Below, piece by piece: positions 21,641 to 26,219 of a stretch of DNA of 35,720 nucleotides. Positions within the stretch are counted from its first letter, which is position 1; each line of letters starts with the position of its first letter. Location of the stretch: positions 1 through 35,720 of the forward strand of contig JAEKLB010000032.1 of assembly GCA_019510095.1 (NCBI GenBank). Direction: 5' to 3'. The notes beneath the pieces are model-generated. The model searched no databases. It was not told where the DNA came from and saw nothing but the letters and a program-made list of their open reading frames with translations. Position numbers and translations under genes: made by a program. Origin of the DNA: Acidobacteriota bacterium. Lineage in GTDB: Bacteria; Actinomycetota; Acidimicrobiia; Acidimicrobiales; CADCSY01.

Positions 21641-23308
<1,668 letters not shown>

Positions 23309-23341
23309 GCCTGTGCTGATCGGCGTCACTGTCGAACTGTG

Positions 23342-23370
23342 AACGGCCGGGCCCTCGGGCCCGGCCGTTT
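23342..23370 (+). terminator. Strong intrinsic terminator of groES-groEL
   Basis: A 12 bp perfect stem (23342-23353 with 23358-23369) closes a CTCG loop and is followed by TTT. Because the stem begins with AA on the other side, it may also serve the convergent DUF4173 gene whose stop is at 23380. Confidence 0.85.
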
Positions 23371-23379
23371 CGCGTCACG

Positions 23380-24891
23380 TCAGGGTGCCTGCGTGGATGC
23401 TGAGCACAGCCTGGCGCGGGCGTGGTCAGCTCGCGACGTGGCCCGGTTCCAGCTGAGCGGGGCGTGGTTCTCGAGACGCGGGCGGCAGAGCCCTCGCACC
23501 ACGATGCGTCGATCTTTCTCGGGCAGGTCGGCCACGCCCCCGACCGACGCGGGCACGGCATCGTCGGACAGCGTGGCGAGGTAGGCGGGGTCGTATCGGC
23601 GGCCGCCGCCCGCGCGGCCGAGATCATGCCGAACGACGAGGGCCTCGGGGTTGCACGCGTTGAGCACCACGAGGATCACGAAGGCCAGCGCCCCGGCGGC
23701 GGGCGTGAACCACGCGCGATCACGCGCGAGGCCGGCGAGGCGCATGGCGAGGAGCACCAGCGCGAGGCCGATCCAGACCGCGCCGGCCTTGGCCACCAGG
23801 CGCAGCAGCGTCCATCCGTACGCGTCCTCGTAGAGGCTGAGTCGTCGTAGAGCGACCAGCAGCACGAGGAACGTCAGCGCCACGCTGACCGCGGTGAGCA
23901 CGGTGAAGCGCCGGCGGTCACGCCTGGTCGAGCGATCGGCAACGGCGCTGAGCAGGCCGAGGACGACAGCGGTCAGGACGGCCACGGCCAGCAGCTGGAA
24001 GTACCCGGTCCTGGCGTAGGCCGCGTAGGTGAGCCCGCGTGTCTCGAGCACCCGGTGGGCGCCACCCGCAGCCGCGACGACCTGCACTGTCGCGAACGCG
24101 GCGAAGAGGGCGGCGACGCTACCGAGCACGATGGTCCACTCCGTGACCCCGAGCTTCCAGCCCGTCGGCGGGAGTGGGCGGGAGGGCGACGCCGAGGCGA
24201 GGCGGAGCACACCGGCCATGCCGAGCGCGCCGATCACCGTCAACATCAGATGGGCGACGGCGTTGCCGGGCACCGAGATGTGCACGCGAAGCATCGACGC
24301 GAACACGGCGTCGGCCGAGACGAACAGCGCGACGAGGACGGCAACCAGGGGTACGGCGAGCGCGGCACCACGACCGACCTTCGCCAGGTTCTCGAAGCGC
24401 TCTTCCCGGTCACCGCGCGCCAACCAGCGGCGGGCTGGATCGACGAGGAAGCCGGCGGCGCGGGCCGCGTGGATGACGGCCAGGACCGCGCGCGACGCGA
24501 GGAGCGCCAGCGACAGGTCGGTCAGCCGTCCGTCACGGGCGAGCATGGCGCCGAGCAGCAGCAGCCCGGCGATGGCCAGCACGTCGGCGGGCACCAGCCA
24601 CGGGCTCATGCGGAGGGGGAGGAACAGGCTGATGACCGCAGCGGCCGCCAGGCAGGTGCGGCTCGCCGCGGTGTGCACCCGACCGCTGGCCTGGAGACCG
24701 ACAGCGGCGACCAGTGCGGCAAGACAACCGCCCACGCTCGCCACCCCTGAGCGAACACCGACATCGAAGGCCACGCCGCCGGCCAGGGCGATGATCGCCG
24801 CTCGGCGGTCGGCGGGTTCGGCCAGTGCCACCCGCCAGTCGGGCCAGCCGACGATGTCGGTCACGCTCCACCCGGCCACCTGGCTCCGCAT
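23380..24891 (-). CDS. DUF4173-type multi-pass membrane protein
   Basis: This 503-residue protein has about ten to twelve hydrophobic segments, e.g. AAIIALAGGVAFDVG, VPADVLAIAGLLLLGAML, AALAVPLVAVLVALFVS and ALAFVILVVLNACNPEALVV. The RRLSLYEDAYGWTLLRL segment near residue 370 resembles the DUF4173/DUF4153 family, whose function is unknown. The C-terminal 100 residues look soluble and contain DPAYLATLSDDAVPA. The ATG at 24891 is six bases after a CACACT -10 box, with no Shine-Dalgarno, so the transcript is probably leaderless. It is divergent from a TetR regulator and a palindrome lies inside its promoter, so it is a likely TetR target. Confidence 0.8.
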   Translation of the reverse strand: MRSQVAGWSVTDIVGWPDWRVALAEPADRRAAIIALAGGVAFDVGVRSGVASVGGCLAALVAAVGLQASGRVHTAASRTCLAAAAVISLFLPLRMSPWLVPADVLAIAGLLLLGAMLARDGRLTDLSLALLASRAVLAVIHAARAAGFLVDPARRWLARGDREERFENLAKVGRGAALAVPLVAVLVALFVSADAVFASMLRVHISVPGNAVAHLMLTVIGALGMAGVLRLASASPSRPLPPTGWKLGVTEWTIVLGSVAALFAAFATVQVVAAAGGAHRVLETRGLTYAAYARTGYFQLLAVAVLTAVVLGLLSAVADRSTRRDRRRFTVLTAVSVALTFLVLLVALRRLSLYEDAYGWTLLRLVAKAGAVWIGLALVLLAMRLAGLARDRAWFTPAAGALAFVILVVLNACNPEALVVRHDLGRAGGGRRYDPAYLATLSDDAVPASVGGVADLPEKDRRIVVRGLCRPRLENHAPLSWNRATSRADHARARLCSASTQAP

Positions 24892-24897
24892 GCCCCC

Positions 24898-24926
24898 AGT
24901 GTGATCGCCCTTGGGCGATCGGTCAA
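24898..24926 (-). promoter_or_regulatory. DUF4173 promoter with palindromic operator in the spacer
   Basis: On the minus strand TTGACC (24921-24926) and CACACT (24898-24903) are exactly 17 bases apart. A perfect palindrome, GATCGCCC-TT-GGGCGATC (24903-24920), fills the spacer. The -10 box ends six bases before the ATG. A bound repressor here would block RNA polymerase; the neighbouring TetR protein is the obvious candidate. A related half-site pair, TTGGGC (24911-24916) and GCCCAA (24934-24939), overlaps it. Confidence 0.7.
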
Positions 24927-24971
24927 GGCAGTTGCCCAAAGCGAATGGTCATCACAACGCGCCAGCATCGG

Positions 24972-24977
24972 TAGCGT
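24972..24977 (+). promoter_or_regulatory. Candidate leaderless -10 box for the TetR gene
   Basis: TAGCGT ends seven bases before the GTG at 24985. A weak -35 at most. About 50 bases separate it from the palindrome, so autoregulation by the same site is less direct. Confidence 0.4.
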
Positions 24978-24984
24978 GGCGGGC

Positions 24985-25602
24985 GTGGCAAAGGCCGGTC
25001 CCCGAACAGCGCCAGCGGGGGGCGACGAGCTCAGGTCGAAGCTCGTCGACGCCACCATCCGCGTCCTGGCCCGCGACGGCTTCGCTCATACGAGCGCCCG
25101 GGCCATCGCCGCCGAGGCGGCCACCGTCAACGGGTCGATCTTCTACTACTTCGGCTCCATGGACGGCCTGCTGGCCGCCACCGCCCGCACGCTGGCGGCG
25201 CGTGGGATCCAGCGCATCCGGGACGGCCTCGGCGGGGACCATGCCCACGCTGAATGGCCCCGCCGGCTCCGCGAGGTCATGCGCGCGGAAGCCGATGGCG
25301 ACGACGGGCGGGCCGTGATGGAGCTCTTCGTCGGGTCCCGAACCTCACCGGTGCTCGCCGCCGAGGTTCGTGCGGCCATCGATCAGGCCATTGCCTTCGC
25401 CACGGCCGAGCTCCAAGCGGTGCTCGGGGGCTCGGCGCTCGACGCGCTCCTGCCCATGACGCTCGTTGCCGAGCTGGCGGCCGCAGCGTTCCTCGGCATC
25501 GAGATCCTCCTCCAGAACGGGCGGGACATCGACCTCGACGGCCTCGCGACGACCCTCGCCCAGGGCCTCCAACTGATCGCCGCCGCCAAGACCCGTCGCT
25601 AA
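24985..25602 (+). CDS. TetR-family transcriptional regulator
   Basis: A 205-residue regulator with an N-terminal helix-turn-helix (about residues 18-64: KLVDATIRVLARDGF, HTSARAIAAEAATVNGSIF, YYFGSMDGLL) typical of TetR, followed by an all-helical ligand-binding domain that I cannot match to a ligand. GTG 24985 is chosen since it lies seven bases after TAGCGT; GTG 24976 is possible. It is divergent from the DUF4173 gene, which has a palindrome in its promoter, and upstream of the MDMPI-like gene on the same strand. Probably a repressor of the divergent gene. Confidence 0.9.
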   Translation: MAKAGPRTAPAGGDELRSKLVDATIRVLARDGFAHTSARAIAAEAATVNGSIFYYFGSMDGLLAATARTLAARGIQRIRDGLGGDHAHAEWPRRLREVMRAEADGDDGRAVMELFVGSRTSPVLAAEVRAAIDQAIAFATAELQAVLGGSALDALLPMTLVAELAAAAFLGIEILLQNGRDIDLDGLATTLAQGLQLIAAAKTRR

Positions 25603-25631
25603 TTGACCTCGCCGCTCGCCTCGCCGAGCAT
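25603..25631 (+). promoter_or_regulatory. Candidate promoter of the MDMPI-like gene
   Basis: TTGACC (25603-25608), 17 bases, GAGCAT (25626-25631), then six bases to the ATG at 25638. The -35 box is identical to that of the DUF4173 promoter. The -10 box is weak, matching only at A2 and T6. Confidence 0.4.
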
Positions 25632-25637
25632 GCAGCC

Positions 25638-26219
25638 ATGCACTCCCCGGCAGCACAGGCCTACGCGTGGGCGTCCGAGTTCTTCGTCGACGTCGTCGCC
25701 CAGATCGGCGTCACCCAGTACGACGACGCCGGTCTCGGCGATTGGAGCGTGCGCGAGCTCATCGCCCACGCCAACCGGGCGCACGTGCTCGTGGTGGAGT
25801 ACATCGAGCATCCCGTCGATCCCGCCCAGGTCCCGGCCGACTACTTCTCCCCGGCATCGATCGGCGCCCGCGCCCGCCAGGCCGTGGTCGACCTCGGGGA
25901 CGACGTGGTCGCCGGTGTGCAGGAGGCGGCTCGCCGGGCCCGCCAGGTGATCGGTGACGCGCCGCCTCGGGCCAAGGTCGGGACGCCCGCTGGCTCCATG
26001 CTGCTCGACCAGTACCTGCCGGGCCGGACCACGGAGCTCCTGATCCATGGCCTCGACCTGGCCCGGGCGACGGGCTCCGGCGCCACCCCACCACCAGAGG
26101 CGATGAAGAGCTGCTTGCGCTTCCTGGCCGACCGGGCTGCGCAGATCGATCAGGCGTTGCCGGTGGTGCTCGCCCTGTCGGGCCGCGGCCACCTTTCCCA
26201 TGACTTCTCGGTCTTCTGA
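25638..26219 (+). CDS. Mycothiol-dependent maleylpyruvate isomerase-like (MDMPI, DinB-fold) protein
   Basis: Members of this TIGR03086-like family are metal-binding four-helix proteins that use mycothiol as cofactor. The 193-residue protein has the N-terminal WSVRELIAHANRAH segment with H44, and TTELLIHGLDLARATG with E133 and H137, matching the His/Glu/His metal site spacing of the corynebacterial isomerase. True maleylpyruvate isomerase activity cannot be assumed, as most relatives are of unknown function, and no other gentisate-pathway gene is present. It implies a mycothiol-using organism. ATG 25638; 35 bases after the TetR stop. Confidence 0.8.
   Translation: MHSPAAQAYAWASEFFVDVVAQIGVTQYDDAGLGDWSVRELIAHANRAHVLVVEYIEHPVDPAQVPADYFSPASIGARARQAVVDLGDDVVAGVQEAARRARQVIGDAPPRAKVGTPAGSMLLDQYLPGRTTELLIHGLDLARATGSGATPPPEAMKSCLRFLADRAAQIDQALPVVLALSGRGHLSHDFSVF

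Follow-up and report, generated by a model that had tools for sequence, protein, structure and literature searches.

Where a TetR-family regulator gene and a divergent neighbour are less than 200 bp apart, the regulator mostly acts as a repressor of this neighbour (Ahn et al. 2012, PMC3511530). The locus described here resembles the TetR/tetA, ActR and SCO7222 pairs (PMC3511530) in that the divergent genes are separated by less than 200 bp, a dyad lies over the promoter of the neighbour and autoregulation is likely. It differs from these pairs in the sequence of its proposed operator and in a target that varies among orthologues. Two further comparisons concern the operator itself. Operators of the QacR type are 28-bp palindromes bound by a tetramer (PMC4482099); similarly, a TTGGGC-17-GCCCAA arrangement in our locus spans 29 bp and contains an inner dyad, so that two dimers are conceivable, whereas, unlike in the QacR type, the full outer pair is kept in just two of the loci compared below. 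The putative operator of SGR5269, TTGCGCAGTGGGCAA (PMC3511530, Table 2), has the same TTG...CAA ends and a similar length, but with its 15 bp and other inner bases this is a resemblance only.

The window, that is the whole stretch of 35,720 nucleotides that was analysed, carries on the minus strand at 23380–24891 a gene for a protein of 503 aa, which had been named a DUF4173 membrane protein. This name has to be replaced, as Pfam reports DUF4153 alone (PF13687, E 7.8e-63, 213.3 bits with a cut-off of 27). The family appears in the literature in the removal of DUF4153 from the Cache clan (PMC4822843) and is also named in a paper on plant markers. Divergent to it, on the plus strand at 24985–25602, lies a gene with a GTG start for the expected TetR-family regulator (TetR_N helix–turn–helix, PF00440, E 1e-11, 44.8 bits with a cut-off of 24). 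The AlphaFold model of this protein is of moderate confidence (mean pLDDT 73, C-terminal part low) and contributed the fold only: it consists of helices only, and TetR structures came out on top when the PDB was searched with it. The BetI and ScbR models of NCBIfam are the best-scoring TetR models for these proteins, with 46 and 53 bits, respectively, well below the curated equivalog cut-offs of 201 and 150 bits. The reading frame of the regulator is open further upstream through the operator to a GTG at 24901 (24901–24984); we favour 24985 as the start, since the orthologues have the N-terminal residues AK-GPR in common there. A third gene at 25638–26219 on the plus strand codes for an MDMPI_N (mycothiol-dependent isomerase-like) protein (Pfam E 1.2e-10).

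Close orthologues of the regulator are rare. A search of the order (397 genomes including the own one, with the best seven candidates per genome scored) gave two beyond the window, in G460 (73% identical) and G640 (54%). The family of G640, covered with 39 genomes, yielded a third one in G681, 70% identical to that of G640, and that of G460 yielded none in its five other genomes. When the G640 protein was searched against 395 genomes of the whole class, the additional proteins were 32–40% identical. A single-protein scan of genome contigs for close relatives found none.

The spacer between the divergent genes is 93 nt long in the window as well as in G460 and aligns without indels. Within it, at the same offset, the stretch 24911–24939 is identical at 27 of 29 positions, while shuffled pairs (n=150) reached at best 23 for a 29-mer (mean 16.4) and the flanks agree at 5 of 19 positions on the left and 16 of 40 on the right. 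When all axes in the stretch were scored over the four orthologues (window, G460, G640 and G681), the top axis was that of 24911–24926 with 25 of 32 pairs (6, 5, 7 and 7 of 8, in this order). This 16-bp imperfect dyad, TTGGGCGATCGGTCAA, is a variant of TTGAGC-N4-GCTCAA. Its outer halves are TTGGGC/GGTCAA in the window and G460, where they are incompletely paired, TTGAGC/GCTCAA in G640 and TTGTGC/GCACAA in G681, with compensated changes at two positions. Since the element itself served to align G640 and G681, their conservation weighs less than that of G460. The spacer thus harbors a dyad-symmetric site that is conserved in the orthologues.

The 29-bp axis is among the next-ranked (7, 6, 6 and 3 pairs in the same order) and includes a third half-site at 24934–24939. 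The pattern occurs without mismatch once each in genomes G000, G460 and G640, in each case beside the TetR gene, and the site of G681 deviates at 3 positions. The outer TTGGGC/GCCCAA pair is fully kept in the window and G460 only; G640 retains 4 of 6 and G681 3 of 6 positions. The suggestion of the original prediction that such a pair may extend the operator is supported. We consider 24911–24926 as the best-supported candidate for the operator, perhaps with an extension to the GCCCAA ending at 24939. In addition, G640 has an extra TTGGGGCAACTGCC stretch near its TetR promoter (L159:1460–1480), at which a second repressor contact is conceivable.

The pattern TTGAGC-N4-GCTCAA, derived from the orthologues, was then scanned in other loci. 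We counted 56 distinct TetR homologues from 300 bases upstream to 30 bases into the match, leaving out the window, the orthologues L158, L159 and L185 and the repeats L212, L217 and L218 (of L004, L006 and L175). With at least 11 of 12 positions matching, the motif was present upstream of 10 of the 56 homologues and in none of 56 equal-length downstream controls, and at 10 of 12 or better the counts were 16 and 3. Palindromes with shuffled arms (n=199) gave on average 0.03 occurrences at the 11/12 threshold and at most one. Even the looser motif occurred just twice in the 652 kb of 116 DUF4153 loci. Across the more distant TetR homologues (59 loci) it recurs, mostly as exact TTGAGC-N4-GCTCAA. 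As 40 of the 56 homologues have no site at 10 of 12, the motif is a property of part of the family, and it looks like an operator class for this part, of which the window copy would be a diverged member common to G460. With a match at 10 of 12 consensus positions and 4 of 6 outer positions paired, the window copy is weaker than many. The neighbours of the operator-bearing homologues, which were inspected for function, have mixed or no Pfam matches. The motif did not turn up in a limited search of the literature; a paper on AmtR mentions GCTCAA along with palindromes and TetR-family operators. In addition, several loci (L164:537–583, L171:2989–3039, L176:393–408, L177:235–250 and L010:673–688) carry exact sites at about 0.8–1.3 kb upstream from the TetR match, in two of them paired at a distance of 31–35 bp, and these regulators may control further promoters.

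The right half of the proposed operator coincides with a putative promoter element. On the minus strand TTGACC at 24926–24921 is followed after 17 nt by CACACT at 24903–24898, then by the six bases GGGGGC and by the ATG of the DUF4153 gene at 24891–24889, exactly as had been read before. CACACT is a weak −10 element, matching the consensus at 3 of 6 positions, and a consensus promoter scan called no promoter in this region. The geometry is, on the other hand, kept in all four orthologues: matching hexamers (TTGACC in the window and G460, TTGAGC in G640, TTGTGC in G681) stand at the same place and are in each case one half-site of the operator, 17 nt follow, and the −10-like hexamers CACACT, GATCAT, TAACGT and TAACGT lie 6, 6, 8 and 8 nt ahead of the ATG (window, G460, G640 and G681). 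On the plus strand a TAnnnT is found 7, 7, 6 and 6 nt ahead of the TetR start, in the window as TAGCGT at 24972–24977, seven bases before the GTG. Leaderless genes are common in Actinobacteria (PMC3160421, PMC3898074). With −10-like boxes 6–8 nt from their starts both genes look leaderless, and for the DUF4153 gene, for which this had also been supposed in the original prediction, the spacing makes a leaderless start probable. A leaderless start needs a fixed distance from the −35 hexamer, which may explain why the position of the ATG is the same in G460 without a shared descent of the coding sequences.

Taking together the conserved site, its axis, the enrichment of the motif and the identity of a half-site with the −35 hexamer, the TetR protein probably represses its neighbour and itself. 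The reading that we hold to be fairly likely is that a TetR dimer at 24911–24926 blocks the promoter of the leaderless DUF4153 gene and can regulate its own gene, and that this target is not shared with the orthologues. The dimer would bind the imperfect dyad, possibly extending to 24939, cover the −35 hexamer and keep RNA polymerase off the DUF4153 gene; as the operator is situated 59–74 bases upstream of the TetR start, autoregulation would be allowed, and some ligand would release the repressor. We infer binding, repression and release from the observed conservation, motif enrichment and gene contexts.

One point against this reading is the partner. In all three other orthologues the divergent gene codes for a B12-binding radical-SAM protein (66% identity to that of G460 in G681, 64% in G640), and DUF4153 takes this place in the window alone. 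At E 1e-20 the radical-SAM gene has no match in the own genome (97% complete), and it is absent from all of the other 59 TetR loci (three of them repeats). The orthologues therefore face a different partner, and the case for control of DUF4153 is purely one of position.

The DUF4153 genes point in the same direction. Matches to the family are present in 12 of 59 genomes and, across the class, in 40 of 395 (both sets include the own genome). No TetR gene was found in flanks of up to 1.5 kb of 36 DUF4153 loci besides that of the window, and among 80 loci from named genomes with flanks of up to 3 kb there was one (L124), downstream and on the same strand, in addition to a marginal TetR match in L103 (E 0.006). 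A divergent upstream TetR gene was thus encountered in none of the 116 other DUF4153 loci within the flanks examined, where the two sets overlap (L034/L079, L033/L095 and L041/L112 look, from their lengths, like the same contigs) and some flanks end early at contig ends. Within these flanks DUF4153 and TetR do not form a conserved pair. As observations on the family itself, L039 (genome G037) has two tandem DUF4153 genes, and in L034:1486–4371, L036:64–2928 and L046:1498–4398 the open frames comprise about 950 codons with about 480 ahead of the DUF4153 part, which may be a fusion or a chance open frame.

The surroundings of the three genes suggest how the unusual pair came about. Relatives keep the order tsaD-groES-groEL-Nudix-guaB-like (L221, L223, L226, L231 and L233), and in the window the DUF4153, TetR and MDMPI genes (23380–26219) sit between groEL and Nudix as an insertion compared to them. 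In 14 regions of relatives, 8 of which hold groEL while the other 6 are short or without it, no DUF4153, TetR or MDMPI match was found, and the 16 kb around the G460 regulator contain nothing else that resembles the window. Most simply, the regulator would have been acquired or relocated together with its control region, and would in this way have come to lie opposite DUF4153.

The same facts could be taken to mean that TetR controls itself alone, or a distant gene, and that DUF4153 is a bystander: its other loci have no divergent TetR in the flanks examined, the partner of the orthologues is the radical-SAM gene, and the block is an insertion. We regard this as unlikely, because the divergent −35 hexamer lies inside the conserved element with its spacing kept, so that a bound repressor would cover the promoter whatever the gene. 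Of the original claim that TetR represses the divergent membrane protein gene, the operator-like site over the promoter stands, and a general link of the regulator to DUF4153 is not supported, given the flanks examined of the 116 loci and the three orthologues.

A second alternative places the repressor elsewhere in the same spacer. In the original prediction a perfect 18-base palindrome filling the −35/−10 spacer was proposed as the operator. The inverted repeat GATCGCCC-TT-GGGCGATC at 24903–24920 does exist with arms of 8 bp, yet its TT centre is not self-complementary, so that 16 of 18 positions are symmetric; the right half is overlapped by TTGGGCGATCGGTCAA. It could have newly evolved in this lineage as the operator after the change of target, and it sits in the promoter spacer, a position suited to blocking by a repressor. 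A repeat of this kind is unusual for the spacer and not for the window: a 93-nt spacer of like composition would contain one or more 8-bp repeats with a probability of 0.0019 for a loop of 2 and 0.016 for loops of 0–10, while the window as a whole has six perfect 8-2-8 repeats with 2.05 expected from a first-order Markov model. With exact arms and a free centre the genome has a single copy of it. Among the listed sites the next best have 2 mismatches, and these sites, all with at least 2 mismatches, show no sign of a genome-wide set. With up to 3 mismatches 81 places were counted versus 12 for the reversed pattern, an excess which may come from composition. The footprint across orthologues, however, goes against the repeat: along its axis all 8 positions pair in the window, compared to 2, 4 and 3 in the three orthologues, and the closest of them, G460, retains the neighbouring element and not the palindrome, which is in addition unlike the TTGAGC-N4-GCTCAA consensus of related regulators. 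As its axis is absent from the three orthologues, the repeat was dropped as the first-choice operator; judged from the sequences it is probably not the operator, and its recent origin as one appears improbable to us. That the DUF4153–TetR junction is an error of the draft assembly (227 contigs, 3.01% contamination) with a partner unlike that of the orthologues is most improbable, since groEL on one side and Nudix/guaB-like on the other side follow the order of the relatives, the GC content is even (0.71–0.73 from 23000 to 26000), and the spacer length of 93 nt and the position of the start codon match G460.

We return to the proposed operator at 24911–24926 and a divergent gene that is probably repressed. 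Regulator, operator and promoter frame are common to the orthologues, and the target has apparently been swapped here. As a wider proposal, which we find conceivable without quite favouring it, the regulator, its operator and a leaderless promoter frame could be a portable cassette, with a control region of equal length and layout down to the position of the start codon that faces a B12 radical-SAM gene in related lineages and an unrelated DUF4153 membrane protein here, with the target swapped under an unchanged regulator and TTGAGC-N4-GCTCAA as a common plug in part of an acidimicrobial TetR clade with varied neighbours.

These results offer an operator motif for an uncharacterised TetR group of Acidimicrobiales-type genomes and correct the position of the site in the window. 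Should the swap of the target hold true, the locus would be a case of natural rewiring by gene replacement under a fixed leaderless promoter, and the function of DUF4153 should then not be inferred from its TetR neighbour.
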